This document shows positions 1,388 through 11,875 of a stretch of DNA of 20,479 nt, in pieces. The DNA is from a virus: the IMG/VR virus record IMGVR_UViG_3300010367_000007, positions 1-20,479 of that record, one strand, 5' to 3'. Numbering within the stretch: the stretch's first letter is position 1; each line of letters starts with the position of its first letter. Below the pieces are notes generated by a model, which did not search any database, was not told where the DNA came from, and saw nothing but the letters and a program-made list of their open reading frames with translations. A program made the translations under genes and the position numbers.

Positions 1388-2600
1388 GACGCGCGCCGCG
1401 CTCCGCTACCATTGGCCGTTCTGGGCACGACCCAACCAACTCGCTCCCGATGGTGATTGGCGGACATGGCTGGCGCTTGCTGGTCGAGGCTTTGGCAAGA
1501 CGGAGGCCGGCGCTCAGTGGATACGGCAGCGGGTCAAGGACGGCGCTCGCAACATCGCGTTGGTAGCTGAGACGCAAAAGGATCTGGAGGAGGTCATGGT
1601 CGCCCGGCTGTTGACGATCAGCCCAGCCGATGAGGCGCCACGCGTACGCTACAAGCCTGTTCGATTGGCATGGCCAAACGGTGCGACTGCTTTCGGCTAT
1701 AACGGCACCGAGCCCGACCAGCTACGCGGTCCGGAGTTTGACACGGCGTGGGTCGATGAGCTGGCGAAATATCGATACGCTCGCGAGACCTGGGACATGC
1801 TGCAGTTCACCATGCGCGCTGGTGACGATCCGCGCGTGTTCGTGACGACGACGCCGCGTCCGATTCCCGTCCTGAAGGAGATCATCGCCGATAGCGGCAC
1901 GATCATCACCAAAGGCTCGACCATGGACAATGCGTCCAACCTCGCGCCGTCGTTCATGAAGGCGATTGTCGATCGGTATGCCGGCACCCGTCTTGGACGA
2001 CAGGAATTGAACGCAGAGTTGCTTGACGACGTGCCGGGCGCGCTGTGGTCGCGGGATATGCTCGACGCCAATCGGGTGAAGGAAGCGCCTGAGCTACAGC
2101 GCGTCGTGATCGCCGTCGACCCCAGCGGCACCAAAGGCACAGGCGCTGGTGACGACATCGGCATCGTAGCCGCTGGGCTTGGCATCGATGGTCGCGGCTA
2201 TGTGCTCGGCGACTGGACCTGCCAGCTTTCGCCGGAAGGATGGGGCCGTCGCGTGGTCGAGTGTGCGTCGTTCTTTGGTGCCGATCGCATCATCGGCGAA
2301 CGCAACTTCGGCGGCGCTATGGTCGAACACGTCATCCGTACCGTCGACAAGAACGCGTCGTACAAGGAAGTTGTCGCCAGCCGCGGCAAGGTGGCGCGTG
2401 CCGAGCCTATCGCGGCGCTCGATGAACAAGGGCGCATTTCACACGTCGGTGCGTTCCCCGACCTCGAAGACCAGATGTGCTCGATGACGGCTTCCGGCTA
2501 TGTCGGCGAAGGATCGCCAGACCGTGCCGACGCGCGAGTTTGGGCGCTGACTGAGCTGATGCTCGGCGGCACGTACTCCCCCGATTATGGGGCGCTGTGA
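1311..2600 (+). CDS. terL: Terminase large subunit (ATPase-nuclease packaging motor)
   Basis: This 429-residue protein is the motor that translocates DNA into the prohead and cuts concatemers. Walker A is GRGFGKT at residues 58-64. Walker B ends in Asp149-Glu150 (FDTAWVDE), followed by the coupling motif TTTP at 179-182. The C-terminal RNase H-like nuclease shows acidic residues Asp270 (VVIAVDPSG), Glu331 (IIGERNFGG) and Asp408 (DRADARVWAL), which fit the metal-binding triad of the Terminase_6 type. ATG 1311 is preferred because AGGAAG at 1299-1304 is six bases upstream. ATG 1305 abuts that site and would add two residues. It overlaps the end of the small subunit gene in another frame. Confidence 0.95.
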   Translation: MLSPAQLLASLPEPEREAELAKLSTETRAALRYHWPFWARPNQLAPDGDWRTWLALAGRGFGKTEAGAQWIRQRVKDGARNIALVAETQKDLEEVMVARLLTISPADEAPRVRYKPVRLAWPNGATAFGYNGTEPDQLRGPEFDTAWVDELAKYRYARETWDMLQFTMRAGDDPRVFVTTTPRPIPVLKEIIADSGTIITKGSTMDNASNLAPSFMKAIVDRYAGTRLGRQELNAELLDDVPGALWSRDMLDANRVKEAPELQRVVIAVDPSGTKGTGAGDDIGIVAAGLGIDGRGYVLGDWTCQLSPEGWGRRVVECASFFGADRIIGERNFGGAMVEHVIRTVDKNASYKEVVASRGKVARAEPIAALDEQGRISHVGAFPDLEDQMCSMTASGYVGEGSPDRADARVWALTELMLGGTYSPDYGAL

Positions 2601-2622
2601 TGATTTGTGCGAGGATAGCGAT

Positions 2623-2916
2623 ATGACCGATACGATGATCGAGCGCGTTGCGATTGCGTTGGAAAACGAACTGCGCCGACAGCACGAAGGCGAGTATCTC
2701 GTACGCTATTTCCCGCGCGGCCCCGGGTCGGATTGGTTGACGGTCGACGGCAACATTTACGTGACGCCCCTAGTGCGCGCCATCCTCGCCGCGATGCGCG
2801 AGCCGACCGAGGCGATGCTCGACGCCGCCGAGGACAAGGAGTGTCAGAGCCCAAGGGGAACGGCTCGAGCAATGCACCACGCCATGATCGACGCCGCCCT
2901 AACCGACCAGCCGTAA
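2623..2916 (+). CDS. Small hypothetical phage protein
   Basis: A 97-residue protein starts at ATG 2623, with GAGG at 2611-2614 eight bases upstream. An in-frame ATG at 2587 would overlap the terminase gene and has poorer support. It resembles a widespread class of small phage proteins: an N-terminal helix (MIERVAIALENELR), a short beta region with aromatic residues, and a C-terminal segment VRAILAAMREPTEAMLDA followed by MIDAAL. The function of that class is not known to me. The last three codons and stop (Asp-Gln-Pro-stop) lie inside boundary element copy A, so the element supplies the stop codon. Confidence 0.7.
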   Translation: MTDTMIERVAIALENELRRQHEGEYLVRYFPRGPGSDWLTVDGNIYVTPLVRAILAAMREPTEAMLDAAEDKECQSPRGTARAMHHAMIDAALTDQP

Positions 2917-2943
2917 TCATCAACCCACCCGCGCGCGTATCCC
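2905..2943 (+). repeat. Module-boundary element, copy A (before the portal gene)
   Basis: This is the first of four copies of a bipartite element: GACCAGCCGTAATC at 2905-2918, 19 bases, then TATCCC at 2938-2943. The ATG of the portal gene follows seven bases later with no Shine-Dalgarno sequence between. The TAA inside the first half is the stop codon of the preceding gene. Similarity to copy B also covers parts of the spacer (CCACCC and CGTATCCC). The fixed distance of TATCCC to the start codon would suit a promoter making a leaderless mRNA. A recombination boundary is the alternative. Function is inferred. Confidence 0.6.
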
Positions 2944-2950
2944 AGCGCGC

Positions 2951-4921
2951 ATGTCCGGCCGCATCCGACCCGAGAGTGTCCGCCTGAAGGACGCCGGCAA
3001 CGTCGTGCCGATCCGCGACGGGCTCATCAGCATGCTCACCGGCATGGGCACCAGCACCGATCAACGCAGCTACAGCCGCTATTTCGCGCGCGTCATGTCA
3101 GATGTGGAGATCGATCAGGCCTATCGTGGGTCCTGGGTGATGCGGAAAGCAATCGACAAGCCCGCCACCGAGATGGTGCGGGAATGGCGCGACTGGCAGG
3201 CGGACAGCGCCGACATCGAAAAGCTTGAGGCCGAGGAAAAGCGGCTCGACATCCGCAACAAGGTCCGTCGCGCCGAATGCCTGCGTGGGCTCGGTGGAGC
3301 GGGCATGGTCCTGTACGTCGGCGGGTCTGACGCCGAGCAGGCAAACGCGATCGACCCGACCAGGATCAGGGCCGGCGACCTCAAGGCAATCCACGTCTGG
3401 CACCGGTCGCGTTTCGCGCTCGGCCCGATGATCGACACATGGGGCGATCCATGGTTCGGGCACCCGTCCTATTACGAGGTCCAGCTTTCCGGCACGTCTG
3501 GCGGTAAGACGATGCGCTTTCACCCCTCTCGCGTTGTCGCCTTCAAGGGCGAGCCGGTAACCGACATTGCGGGCGTCGACTGGCGTGACGCGCACTGGGG
3601 ACAAGCCAAGGTCCAGACGATCATCGACGCAATCCAGAACGTGGACACCGCGGACACCGGGTTTGCCGCACTGATCAGCCAGGCCAGACTACGGCGCATC
3701 TACATCCCCAAGCTGCTCGACATGCTCAGTCAGCCCGGTGGCGAGGCGAAACTGGCCAAGCGGTTGCAGGCCTTCGCGCTGGGCGAAAGCAACAACTCGG
3801 TATCGTGGCTCGATGGCGGTGACGGTGCGACGGGCGCCGAGAAGATCGACGACAAGCAGGTCACTTGGACCGGCATGCCCGATATCATGGCGGCCTATCG
3901 CACTGCCGCGGCTGCTGCTGCCGACATGCCGGCGACCGTGCTGTGGGGCATCTCGCCGCAGGGCATGAACGCGACCGGCGATAGCGATATCACGCTGTTC
4001 CATAAGACGATCAAGGGCAGGCAGGACCTCGATTTGCGACCGTGCATGACGCAGATCGACGCCGTGTTGGTGCCTTCCGCGCTTGGTCGTGTTGATGACG
4101 GCCTCTGGTACGACTGGGCGCCGCTGTCGACGCAGTCAGAGAAGGACGAAGCGACGACGTTCTTCACCTTCATGCAGGGCGTGGAGAAGCTGCAGGCGAC
4201 CGGCGCGATTCCCGGCGTTGCGTTCGACAAAGCGCTGCAGAACACGCTCGAGGAAAGGTCGTGGTTTCCTGGTCTCGGCGACGCATTGGCCGAGATACCG
4301 GAAGACGAGCGCTTCCCGTCGCTGTCCGAGCCCGATCCGAACGAGCAAGACCCCAACGCCATTCAAGCGGAAGGAGGTGATCAGACCACCGGCGGCAAGG
4401 TAGCCCCACTGCGACGAGCCGCAAACGACACGCGGTTCGTTGATGGCGCGGACCCGAAGACCTTGTACATCGAACGTAAGCTGCTGAACGCGGACGAAGT
4501 GATCCGCTGGGCCAAGTCGCAGGGCTTGGAAACGACGCTCGCACCCGCAGACATGCACGTCACCGTCGCCTATTCGCGGACACCAGTCGATTGGTTTAGC
4601 GTCGGCACGGATTGGGCCGGTGATCAGGACGGCAAGCTGCGGGTCAAACCGGGCGGCGCGCGGACGGTTGAACGTCTCGGTGATGGCGATGCTGTCGCGC
4701 TGCTGTTTGCATCCGATGATCTAAAATGGCGTCACGACCGTATCGCAGAGGCCGGCGCGTCGTGGGATTGGCCCGACTATCGCCCGCACATCACGTTGTC
4801 GTGGAATGCACCCGGCGTCGATGTTGCAGCGATCAAGCCGTATGTCGGGCCGTTGGTGTTTGGACCGGAATTGTTCTCGACAGTGAACGAGGACTGGAAA
4901 TCGGGAGTAACGGAAGAATGA
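2951..4921 (+). CDS. Portal protein with C-terminal Acb1-like anti-CBASS phosphodiesterase domain
   Basis: The 656-residue protein has two parts. Residues about 25-440 are a DUF1073-type phage portal, the dodecameric ring at the capsid vertex through which DNA passes (YRGSWVMRKAIDKPATEM, FHPSRVVAFKG, then ISPQGMNATGDSD). A Pro/Asp/Gln-rich linker spans about 455-495. Residues about 500-656 form a 2H-phosphoesterase with paired HxT motifs, His536-Val-Thr538 and His613-Ile-Thr615. It also has the blocks LYIERKLLNADEVIRWAKSQG and GASWDWPDYRPHITLSW, which I recognise as typical of Acb1, the enzyme that hydrolyses CBASS cyclic nucleotides. The ATG lacks a Shine-Dalgarno sequence and sits seven bases after boundary element A. 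It overlaps the possible early start of the next gene by ATGA. Portal identity is firm. The Acb1 activity is inferred from motifs. Confidence 0.93.
   Translation: MSGRIRPESVRLKDAGNVVPIRDGLISMLTGMGTSTDQRSYSRYFARVMSDVEIDQAYRGSWVMRKAIDKPATEMVREWRDWQADSADIEKLEAEEKRLDIRNKVRRAECLRGLGGAGMVLYVGGSDAEQANAIDPTRIRAGDLKAIHVWHRSRFALGPMIDTWGDPWFGHPSYYEVQLSGTSGGKTMRFHPSRVVAFKGEPVTDIAGVDWRDAHWGQAKVQTIIDAIQNVDTADTGFAALISQARLRRIYIPKLLDMLSQPGGEAKLAKRLQAFALGESNNSVSWLDGGDGATGAEKIDDKQVTWTGMPDIMAAYRTAAAAAADMPATVLWGISPQGMNATGDSDITLFHKTIKGRQDLDLRPCMTQIDAVLVPSALGRVDDGLWYDWAPLSTQSEKDEATTFFTFMQGVEKLQATGAIPGVAFDKALQNTLEERSWFPGLGDALAEIPEDERFPSLSEPDPNEQDPNAIQAEGGDQTTGGKVAPLRRAANDTRFVDGADPKTLYIERKLLNADEVIRWAKSQGLETTLAPADMHVTVAYSRTPVDWFSVGTDWAGDQDGKLRVKPGGARTVERLGDGDAVALLFASDDLKWRHDRIAEAGASWDWPDYRPHITLSWNAPGVDVAAIKPYVGPLVFGPELFSTVNEDWKSGVTEE
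4371..4382 (+). promoter_or_regulatory. Perfect internal Shine-Dalgarno sequence inside the portal-Acb1 linker
   Basis: AAGGAGGTGATC is a 12-base complement to the usual bacterial 16S rRNA 3' end. It lies in codons 474-478, in the linker between the portal and Acb1-like domains. No in-frame ATG, GTG or TTG follows at initiating distance; the nearest TTG is at 4463. It may be a relic of a once separate acb1 gene, a translational pause site that lets domains fold separately, or chance coding of Glu-Gly-Gly-Asp. Confidence 0.45.
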
Positions 4922-4986
4922 GTTGCTTCCATCCGTGGTGCGGCGTCGAGGGCCGCAAATGCATCGATTGCTCACAGGAGAATATC

Positions 4987-5268
4987 ATGCCTACTGTCGA
5001 TAGAGCGCCCGACGCGCGCACCGCCAACAATGCCGTCCGCCACCAGTATCGCGTCCTGAGTGACGCCGAGAAAGCGCAGATGGTCGCCGTGAAGGACAAG
5101 GGCGCCGAGTTCCTTGACCTGATCGACACCCTTCGCACGCCGCCCGAGCCAGCCGGAGAAGTCGATGGCCAGCCGATGGCTATCATGACGTTCGACCGCG
5201 AGTTGCACATCGCGCGCGAGCGTATCGAGGAAGCGGTCATGTGGGCGGTGAAGCACATCACCGCCTGA
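4987..5268 (+). CDS. acb2: Acb2-like cyclic-nucleotide sponge (anti-CBASS/anti-Thoeris)
   Basis: This 93-residue protein matches what I know of the Acb2/Tad1 hairpin family. After a short variable N-terminus come HQYRVLSDAEKAQMVAVKDKGAEF (20-base quote limit aside, residues 19-42) and the C-terminal helix RERIEEAVMWAVKHITA at 77-93. Acb2 proteins form small helical hexamers that bind and sequester CBASS signals such as cGAMP and cyclic trinucleotides. As I recall, phage PaMx33 Acb2 uses Tyr11 and Lys26 in binding. Here Tyr21 and Lys36 keep the same 15-residue spacing. AGGAG at 4976-4980 lies six bases before this ATG. A second possible start, at 4918, overlaps the portal stop by ATGA and would add 23 residues with four cysteines. 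The gene sits between portal and minor head genes. Confidence 0.82.
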   Translation: MPTVDRAPDARTANNAVRHQYRVLSDAEKAQMVAVKDKGAEFLDLIDTLRTPPEPAGEVDGQPMAIMTFDRELHIARERIEEAVMWAVKHITA

Positions 5269-5274
5269 TGCACG

Positions 5275-6132
5275 ATGGCCTCCCAACCTCCGACGACTGA
5301 GCCCGACGAACACCGCAGAGCCGAAGCCGCCGCCCTGATTGCGATCGGGCTGTCCCTCCCCGCCATCATCCGCGCAGCCAAGATAAAGCCGCGCCCGTTC
5401 CGGCAGATCGCGCCAACGGAGGCGCTGCGTTCGTCTATGGCTGCGGTGTTTCTCGACATCGTGAAAGCCTGGCGGGCCGAGCGGCCGGCGATCATGGCGG
5501 CATATGCGGAGGCTCGGGCAACCGGTGATGCCCGCGTTGCCCTGCGCGCTGTCGATGATGCTGCGGCTCGGGTTGCGCCAGTCGTCGCCAGCACCAAGAG
5601 CCGCCTGCCCGACGTCGTGTCGCGCGTAGAGGCATGGCATCGTGGGCAGTGGGTGCGTCGTGTCCAATCCGCGACCGGGCTCAACGTCGCCCATAGCACG
5701 ACGCCGGCCGATGTCCGCGGCGACATCCAGACGACCGTCGATTGGGCATCGCGCCTCGCGGACGATGTCAGCCGCAAGATACAGAACGATATCACGTCGG
5801 GACTGCTCGGCGATCTGGCGGCCAAAAAGCCGGTTGCGGATGCTGGAACGACTGCCAGCGACGTTATCGCCAAGGCCAAGCGTCGATCGCTCGGTATCGG
5901 TGTCGACCAGACTGACAAGCTATCGCGGTCGATGGATCGGTCGCGGCGCAAGGCGGCGGGATTGACGCGGTTCATCTGGCGACACTCTCCGCATGTGCGG
6001 CACCCGAGGCCGGAGCACGTGGCCAGAGACGGGCGCGTGTACAGCGAGGCCAACGCGCCCAACGATAGGGCTGGCGTACTTTTTGGATGTGCCTGTTACG
6101 AGGAACCGATCTGGACTAACGACCAGCCGTAA
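5275..6132 (+). CDS. Minor head protein, phage Mu gpF / SPP1 gp7-like
   Basis: The 285-residue protein belongs by position and C-terminus to the Mu gpF-like minor head proteins (PF04233), which associate with the portal during head assembly and may be ejected with DNA. The family signature is seen late: FIWRHSPHVRHPRPEHV from residue 233 with Trp235, Arg242, His243 and His248, then a Cys272-Ala-Cys274 near the end, matching the usual R-x-x-H and terminal cysteine pattern. Residues about 10-230 are Ala-rich and helical. The start lies six bases after the upstream stop with only a weak ribosome binding site, suggesting coupled translation. The stop lies in boundary element copy B, as Asp-Gln-Pro-stop. 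Confidence 0.82.
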   Translation: MASQPPTTEPDEHRRAEAAALIAIGLSLPAIIRAAKIKPRPFRQIAPTEALRSSMAAVFLDIVKAWRAERPAIMAAYAEARATGDARVALRAVDDAAARVAPVVASTKSRLPDVVSRVEAWHRGQWVRRVQSATGLNVAHSTTPADVRGDIQTTVDWASRLADDVSRKIQNDITSGLLGDLAAKKPVADAGTTASDVIAKAKRRSLGIGVDQTDKLSRSMDRSRRKAAGLTRFIWRHSPHVRHPRPEHVARDGRVYSEANAPNDRAGVLFGCACYEEPIWTNDQP

Positions 6133-10710: not shown

Positions 10711-10749
10711 GACCAGCCGTAATAGGTTGTCGTCACACCATCTAATTCC
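10711..10749 (+). repeat. Module-boundary element, copy C (before the protease-scaffold gene)
   Basis: GACCAGCCGTAAT at 10711-10723 is identical to copies A and B. Nineteen bases after position 14 comes AATTCC at 10744-10749, a variant of TATYCC at the same offset as in copy A. The ATG at 10757 follows seven bases later with no Shine-Dalgarno sequence, exactly as at the portal gene. Here the first half is wholly non-coding, because the tape measure stop lies upstream at 10700-10702. Conservation is therefore not explained by a shared protein C-terminus. Confidence 0.58.
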
Positions 10750-10756
10750 GCGTGCC

Positions 10757-11875
10757 ATGTTCACGGACGCGCTCATCATGGACAAGACGTGGGAGGTCCC
10801 GGGTGGATTTCTCGGCTTTTCCGCGCGTTTCGCCCGCACCGGCGTGCAGATGTACGACGGATCGGAGATCGACCCGGACGGCATTTACAAAGACGCTGCC
10901 GGTGATCGTAAGTTCAAGCCGGGCACGCTGTACCCGGTCGATCGTCCAGCCGAGGAAGTGTTCAAGCCGTCCGCTATGGCGAGCTTCATCGCCAAGCCGC
11001 TGACGAATGACCACCCCGCCGATGGTGTGACGATCGACGATTGGAACGCCAAGACCAAAGGCGTGATCGGCGAAGTTCTCCGCGATGGCGAGTTCGCCCG
11101 CCTGTCCGGCTTGATGACCGACAAAGGACTGATCGCCGACTATCGCGCCGGCAAGAAAGACCTCTCCGGGGGCTATGAGGCCAACCTCGTTGTTCGCGAT
11201 GGCGTCAACCCGGCTGGCGAAAGCTACGTCGCCCAGCAAACGAACATCGACGGCAATCATGTTGCATTCGTGAAGCACGGCCGCGCCGGCAACACCCGCG
11301 TGACAGACGCCGCTCCCTGCTCACCTGCCCCTCAATCCTTCCTCTACAGCCTGCAAACGGAGAAGCCCGTGAAGACCATGCTCATCGACGGGCTCACCGT
11401 CGACGTGTCCAACGCCGATACGGCGATTGCGACGATCAACACCATCCTGGCCGCGCGCGATGCTGCGAATGGCAAGGTGGCCGGCCTCGAAACGCAGGTC
11501 GCCACGCTCACGACCGACAAGGCGACGCTTGAAGCCGAAAAGGTCACGCTGACGCAGCAACTCGCCGATGCGTCGAGCCCCGCCAAACTGCGCGATGCCG
11601 CCAAGGCCTATTCGAACATCGCCGACAAGGCGAAGGCGCTCGGCATCACCGTCACCGACGCGATGGGGCAGACCGAGATCACCAAGGCGGTGGTCGATGC
11701 CAAGATCGATGCCACGCTCCGCGAAGGCTGGACCGATGAGCAATACGCCGCGTCGTTCGCCTCGCTGACCAAGGACGTGAAGGCCACCGACGCGCGCCCG
11801 GGCATCTCCGGTTCGCCGATCGTCGCCAATGACACCAAGAGCGTCCGCGATCTCGCGCGCGCCTCGCGCTACTGA
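10757..11875 (+). CDS. Prohead protease-scaffold fusion (DUF2213)
   Basis: This 372-residue protein matches the DUF2213 family, in which a head maturation protease is joined to a scaffold. Residues about 1-180 form the protease part: GGFLGFSARFARTGVQMYDG, then LTNDHPADG, DLSGGYEANL and NIDGNHVAFVKHGRAG. His86 and Ser137 are candidate catalytic residues, with spacing close to the His/Ser pair I recall from HK97 gp4; this is an inference. Residues about 200-370 are an Ala/Thr/Lys coiled coil typical of scaffolds. I chose ATG 10757 because it aligns with the portal start relative to the boundary element. A TTG at 10727 is possible. An internal start at 11369 may yield scaffold alone. Confidence 0.82.
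   Translation: MFTDALIMDKTWEVPGGFLGFSARFARTGVQMYDGSEIDPDGIYKDAAGDRKFKPGTLYPVDRPAEEVFKPSAMASFIAKPLTNDHPADGVTIDDWNAKTKGVIGEVLRDGEFARLSGLMTDKGLIADYRAGKKDLSGGYEANLVVRDGVNPAGESYVAQQTNIDGNHVAFVKHGRAGNTRVTDAAPCSPAPQSFLYSLQTEKPVKTMLIDGLTVDVSNADTAIATINTILAARDAANGKVAGLETQVATLTTDKATLEAEKVTLTQQLADASSPAKLRDAAKAYSNIADKAKALGITVTDAMGQTEITKAVVDAKIDATLREGWTDEQYAASFASLTKDVKATDARPGISGSPIVANDTKSVRDLARASRY
11369..11875 (+). CDS. Possible nested scaffold protein from an internal GTG start
   Basis: Within the protease-scaffold gene, GTG 11369 is in frame and preceded by GGAGA at 11359-11363 with a five-base gap. It falls at the boundary between the protease domain and the coiled-coil domain. The 168-residue product would begin with Met-Lys-Thr-Met-Leu-Ile-Asp-Gly-Leu, an ordinary-looking protein N-terminus, and would contain the whole scaffold region. 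This arrangement is known from lambda C/Nu3. Only the start signal and position support it here. Confidence 0.35.
   Translation: MKTMLIDGLTVDVSNADTAIATINTILAARDAANGKVAGLETQVATLTTDKATLEAEKVTLTQQLADASSPAKLRDAAKAYSNIADKAKALGITVTDAMGQTEITKAVVDAKIDATLREGWTDEQYAASFASLTKDVKATDARPGISGSPIVANDTKSVRDLARASRY

Follow-up and report, generated by a model that had tools for sequence, protein, structure and literature searches.

The window analysed here is the whole stretch of 20,479 nucleotides from the viral IMG/VR record IMGVR_UViG_3300010367_000007. It holds a head operon in which the portal gene carries a second domain at its 3' end. The features of the locus are listed by coordinates and strand.

2951..4921, + strand: portal-Acb1 fusion protein of 656 aa (open reading frame list; Pfam PF06381 and PF23474)
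3107..4186, + strand: portal core, residues 53-412 (PF06381, E 6.8e-86; Foldseek top match 8hds, the Pam3 portal)
4325..4447, + strand: disordered linker, residues 459-499, the 5' edge of the exchangeable cassette (pLDDT <50)
4428..5355, no strand: cassette of Acb1 and the acb2-like gene, without DNA homology to the relatives L004 and L005 (blastn breaks)
4457..4903, + strand: Acb1 (2H phosphodiesterase) domain, residues 503-651 (PF23474; model pLDDT 90.8; Z 17.4 to 7t27)
4556..4564, + strand: first HxT motif, His536-Val-Thr538 (aligned to T4 H44/T46)
4787..4795, + strand: second HxT motif, His613-Ile-Thr615 (aligned to T4 H113/T115)
4987..5268, + strand: acb2-like gene (Acb2/Tad1 hairpin, PF24729, E 4.3e-17), directly 3' of the portal
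5275..6132, + strand: head-morphogenesis gene directly after the cassette (phrog_324, E 4.9e-22)
10727..11875, + strand: head maturation protease of the DUF2213 type (PF09979, E 2.3e-39; phrog_530)

The protein belongs to the PF06381 (DUF1073) portal family both by profile and by its location between terminase and head genes, with TerS and TerL upstream and the head-morphogenesis gene, protease, and MCP downstream. A phmmer search of PDB sequences aligned the Pam3 portal with the window portal from end to end (E 5e-101); the Acb1 of FBB1 matched residues 525-649 (E 9e-10). Between terminase and portal, an open reading frame of 109 aa (window 2587-2950) had no Pfam match and lies where the window and L005 share no DNA homology; it is possibly a second variable slot.

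The PF23474 profile, “Anti-CBASS protein Acb1”, matched residues 503-651 with E-values of 2.9e-43 in the whole protein and 1.2e-44 in the isolated domain. The corresponding 147-152 bits, over a curated cut-off of 27 bits, are too high for chance and, together with the Acb1 fold, bear out the Acb1-like domain that the preliminary description had placed on the portal C-terminus. The domain was modelled with AlphaFold2 from an alignment of 32 sequences (pLDDT 90.8). Its best match in the PDB was Acb1-cGAMP with bound product (7t27), with a Z-score of 17.4 and an rmsd of 1.8 Å over 135 residues, followed by the phosphodiesterase of phage BCSR5 and LigT with Z-scores of 14.2 and 10.7, respectively. 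The structure search thus placed the domain with Acb1 and not with another 2H family. Membership among the LigT or RNA ligase enzymes was rejected, as the competing Pfam profiles LigT_PEase and 2_5_RNA_ligase2 stayed under their own cut-offs on the window portal and the fold match was weaker. An SD sequence with a start codon near the domain was found in 11/98 cases compared to 9/98 in the control, without enrichment. Free Acb1 from an internal start was thereby ruled out, leaving the fusion as the form in which the enzyme is produced.

The active-site tetrad of T4 Acb1 consists of H44/T46/H113/T115 (PMC9117128), and the two HxT motifs noted beforehand, His536/Thr538 and His613/Thr615, align with it. 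Among 73 distinct fusions, the tetrad and the equivalent of Tyr12 (Tyr506 in the window) were invariant, with Ser replacing the last Thr in 14. The larger set of 208 portal fusions showed His in 208/208 and Thr in 207/208 at the first motif, and His in 206/206 and Thr or Ser in 205/206 at the second; the Tyr506 equivalent was kept in essentially all of them. At the position of T4 Phe107, 70 of the 73 fusions had an aromatic residue, two His, and one Leu, while the equivalent of Trp147 in the C-terminal lid was kept in 42/73. For the base-stacking aromatics of T4 (Y12, W74, F107, W147), the alignment gave Y506, W607, and W649 in the window. The Trp74 position is taken by Glu or Asp in the portal class (E574 in the window), and that of Glu141, an adenine contact, by Glu in 62/73 and 149/208 fusions and by Ser643 in the window. 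The proposed Acb1 identity is supported by tetrad and fold, with the differing residues at E141 and W74 as a qualification. Residues that never vary in the portal class, among them R509, N513, and R571, are in turn missing from T4 Acb1, which is a free protein encoded near 57A/gene 1, unlike the portal C-terminal domain of a head operon described here.

In close pairs, the dN/dS of the domain was about 0.02-0.1 (e.g., dN 0.008 with dS 0.30, and 0.013 with 0.24), and the Acb1 domain is under strong purifying selection in these pairs. The medians over all pairs, 0.31 for the domain and 0.52 for the core, include distant saturated pairs, and close pairs were used instead. Judged by its conservation, the domain is a maintained enzyme, and its predicted binding pocket is akin to, but not identical with, that of T4 Acb1.

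As the W74 and E141 contacts differ from T4, another nucleotide substrate is possible, and the same fold might do another job, as an RNase, as a 2H enzyme of RNA ends (2',3'-cyclic phosphate), or as a hydrolase of other signals (Thoeris, type III CRISPR). An RNase is among the options favoured by Iyer et al. 2017 (PMC5512222), where a parallel with the PBECR RNases is noted, and T4-type relatives carry the label “RNA ligase” in PHROG 755 and RefSeq. Both sequence and fold, however, are much nearer to Acb1 than to LigT, CPDase, and Usb1. The Acb1-specific Y12 equivalent never varies, and residues at the F107 position are, with rare exceptions, aromatic or His, which speaks for Acb1 in spite of the partly different substrate residues. 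T4 Acb1 and nine homologues all cleave cGAMP and cAAA (PMC9117128). Another job is thus rather improbable, even when a possibly Tad1-like neighbour gene (see below) is counted in its favour, and the portal Acb1 domain is predicted to be a likely hydrolase of CBASS signals.

Comparison with close relatives delimited the cassette. By blastn, DNA homology of the window extended to 4439 in L004 and to 4428 in L005 and returned at 5355 in both, with the portal core on one side and the head-morphogenesis gene on the other. The domain start proposed earlier (4440) falls where this homology ends. The fusion had been read correctly, but the swappable cassette with its adjoining Acb2-like gene had been missed. 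When portals of a diverse set of 33 were compared in pairs, the identities of the two core halves correlated with an r of 0.91, compared to 0.16-0.22 for core and Acb1 domain. L026 and L036 shared 97% identity in the core versus 47% in the domain, and L026 and L032 shared 34% versus 96%, although such example pairs do not count as independent cases. AU tests rejected the sister groups of the core with the domain data, and vice versa (p 2e-4 to 9e-54). The DNA of L031 and L042 was 96% identical until 19 nt ahead of the domain and became homologous again 6 nt beyond the coding sequence. The Acb1 domain is an exchangeable cassette, bounded by abrupt DNA breakpoints, one at the linker and the other just past the stop. 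A separate observation concerns L036 and L141, whose Acb1 domains were 98.8% identical with cores of only 43% identity, pointing to a very recent domain transfer.

The survey of presence and absence that had been suggested for DUF1073 portals covered 135 non-redundant portals, with Acb1 in 98, PBECR3 alone in three, and neither in 34. In the near relative L005, a PBECR3 nuclease domain stands in the place of Acb1 (PF18812, E 3e-15), and a single protein of L008 consists of portal, Acb1, and PBECR3 in tandem. PBECR3 also exceeded the cut-off in L110, and only weak PBECR3 matches were found in L009, L105, and L108. This arrangement resembles the MuF polymorphic toxins of temperate phages, in which an N-terminal head-protein part is joined to exchangeable effector C-termini, but differs in its carrier, the portal, and in its main cargo, which is counter-defence and not toxin. 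Assignment to a MuF-type polymorphic toxin system was rejected, as no MuF carrier is present and the head-morphogenesis protein is encoded just downstream.

Further portals carried other cargo without a convincing Pfam match, namely 245 aa after Acb1 in L006:5680-6414 and a 113-aa tail in L157:5255-5593. An 838-aa protein (L359:2688-5204) has Acb1 near its N-terminus, the rest being likewise without a convincing Pfam match. The portal of L138:2124-3620 ends in ...RRAVNDAKPRTLY/EDWKSRIEEE, an in-frame deletion of the Acb1 domain that left both edges. The peptide RRAAND or near variants of it lies at window 4410-4430, at the seam before the cargo, and occurs there in many relatives too, in Acb1, PBECR3, and bare portals alike. 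Possible roles are those of a recombination seam and of a processing site.

Portals without Acb1 or PBECR3 (34 of the 135, including the L138 deletion) and the portal location itself would fit a structural remnant, in which the domain is bulk on the portal crown and an enzyme no longer. This is very improbable, given catalytic residues that are essentially invariant in 208 sequences, the low dN/dS in close pairs, the swapping of the domain independently of the core, the existence of free-standing versions, and a Pam3 portal domain that is unmodelled rather than packed.

The second gene of the cassette scored 62.5 bits with PF24729 against a cut-off of 27, and a second search gave E 1.4e-18 at 5047-5262. 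Its ATG at 4987 is preceded by AGGAG, while an alternative ATG in the same frame, at 4918, overlaps the stop codon of the portal gene. In a curated-profile search of 50 records, PF24729 exceeded its cut-off in five, always 50-150 nt past the fused Acb1. It was found in none of 35 records whose portals are without fused Acb1, a comparison to which loci already known to hold Acb2 had been added by hand. The unbiased sample gave 5/48 with and 0/37 without fused Acb1, which is not significant by itself, and most portal-Acb1 fusions have no Acb2. Of about 20 distinct loci with acb2/tad1, which include prophages of Rhizobium, Sphingomonas, Mesorhizobium, and Tropicimonas, 19 had the gene at -7 to +197 nt from the fused portal. 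It is this fixed position beside the fused portal, and not presence or absence, that is striking. The sole exception in position is L237:7262-7621 (Aureimonas altamirensis), where about 2 kb separate the acb2-like gene from the fused portal upstream of it. PF24729 also covers Tad1, the target of which is a Thoeris signal, and this counts against the CBASS reading of the neighbour gene. T4 has both Acb1 and Acb2, and nuclease and sponge may be of unequal use against a given CBASS operon (PMC11722364).

Outside the PF06381 portals, the Acb1 domain was found on PF04860 portals (L209, L210, L196, and L239, as well as L416 with a weaker portal match) and on 16 distinct Mu-type PF06074 portals. It also occurred on head proteases of the DUF2213 family, to which the protease at window 10727..11875 belongs (L247, L341), and of the S78_2 type (L292 and L412, with L420 by phmmer only). 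In the domain tree, in which many branches are weakly supported, Mu-type and PF04860 fusions lay among the PF06381 ones and S78_2 fusions in more than one place. Head proteins have captured the domain repeatedly, with portals of three families and head proteases of two types as carriers. Acb1 was also encoded separately beside the portal in Edwardsiella phage ZHS and as an ORF overlapping the portal end in Synechococcus phage Yong-M3-232 (L082:1480-2144). In the latter, a tandem duplication of about 130 bp, which covers linker and first domain strand, shifts the frame and makes Acb1 a separate ORF.

The model of the whole portal has the portal fold, with 8hds as its best Foldseek match (E 1.8e-26), and residues 459-499 are disordered in it (pLDDT <50), so that the Acb1 domain would hang on a flexible tether. 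The 8hds entry contains 12 portal chains, in which 442 of the 621 Pam3 residues are modelled; the 179 missing ones approximate linker and domain in size. A search of PDB structures with the Acb1 domain alone did not return 8hds, which was found through the core, and this was read as a sign of an unmodelled Acb1 domain in Pam3. Very probably the tethered domain was left out of this virion structure because it is mobile or had been removed.

These observations bear on the main rival explanation, in which the domain is virion cargo. Loaded into the head lumen via portal or protease, freed or tethered, it would be ejected with the DNA or act on entry and pre-empt CBASS in the next cell, as modelled on the T4 internal proteins and MuF-linked effectors. 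The residues absent from the Pam3 virion structure and the predicted linker disorder would agree with this, although the former may be merely flexible. The DUF2213 and S78_2 protease partners are procapsid components, and the same slot holds a PBECR3 nuclease without evident assembly role (L005, L110, and the L008 tandem). Iyer et al. 2017 (PMC5512222) propose packaging and injection for PBECR proteins that are encoded together with virion components. Portal subunits, however, remain in the capsid, and ejection needs a cleavage for which the candidate site is only putative. Acb2, a small free protein of the same cassette, would work in the cytoplasm, and free Acb1 is encoded in the head operon of Yong-M3-232 and ZHS. 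On balance, virion cargo is considered unlikely.

Instead, the portal C-terminus is probably a cargo slot for a late counter-CBASS module, composed of an Acb1-type phosphodiesterase, predicted to be active, and an Acb2-like sponge. Lying in the same direction, the Acb1 domain and the acb2-like gene would constitute an anti-CBASS unit of the head operon that can be swapped. Late expression of the head genes would yield portal subunits both free in the cytoplasm and at twelve per assembling head. The portal-tethered Acb1 would hydrolyse CBASS cyclic di- and trinucleotides, and Acb2 would sequester uncut signal. Abortive infection would thus be suppressed when heads, one reported CBASS trigger, appear. 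The C-terminus of portals usually points into the head, where a signal from the cytoplasm would be harder to reach, and this counts against cytoplasmic action. According to a review (PMC12409349), a CBASS sensor is among the interaction partners of a prohead protease.

More tentatively, tailed phages may have repeatedly made head proteins carriers of swappable counter-defence, placing an enzyme at or inside every new head. If true, an anti-CBASS enzyme would either quench the alarm at the site where capsid assembly sets it off or reach the next host with the genome. The predicted counter-CBASS activity would then be tied to head assembly, a stage linked to CBASS activation, and the head position itself can now be tested against late co-expression alone. 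The exchange hotspot also offers a simple place to seek more anti-defence genes.

The bare portal-2H fusion is already known in outline, as had been anticipated. Pfam lists both domains, and the Pam3 portal and portals of Rhizobium, Pseudomonas, and Synechococcus phages share the two-domain architecture over the full length, annotated merely as portal. Acb2 was not found in the Pam3 genome with the PF24729 profile. Fusions of MuF or portal domains with 2H and PBECR domains were described by Iyer et al. 2017 (PMC5512222), with RNase activity or degradation of nucleotide-activated defence signals as suggested roles. The exchange between near-identical portals, the Acb1-PBECR3 tandem, the linkage to Acb2, the spread over three portal families, and the fusions to proteases are not described in the passages of that article that were searched. 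No paper discussing the Acb1-portal fusion as such was found in a search of mostly openly accessible articles. Cassette exchange, Acb2 linkage, and capture by three portal families and two protease types appear undescribed in the literature covered.

In earlier work, Acb1 and Acb2 appear as relatively rare proteins of particular phage groups (PMC11722364), whereas the portal-fused form shows Acb1-type domains to be widespread. In viral sequences, the domain matched at least 566 stretches. With the domain alignment as query, 103 stretches of GTDB genomes were found, and Alphaproteobacteria and Pseudomonas made up most of the 80 matches listed. A PF18144 CD-NTase-type protein occurred in 14 of 50 host genomes with the domain, a count without a matched background rate, so CBASS-type enzymes exist in these hosts.

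Several Acb1 relatives carry misleading names. RefSeq labels T4 57B (L088) and many others as “RNA ligase”, and PHROG 755 does likewise. The name “prohead protease” is attached to L083:3989-4441 (DSS3P8 gp129) and L084:2116-2715 (ZHS_4). Both were rejected as protease fusions, since these short genes, encoding 150 and 199 aa, respectively, are filled by the Acb1 domain.
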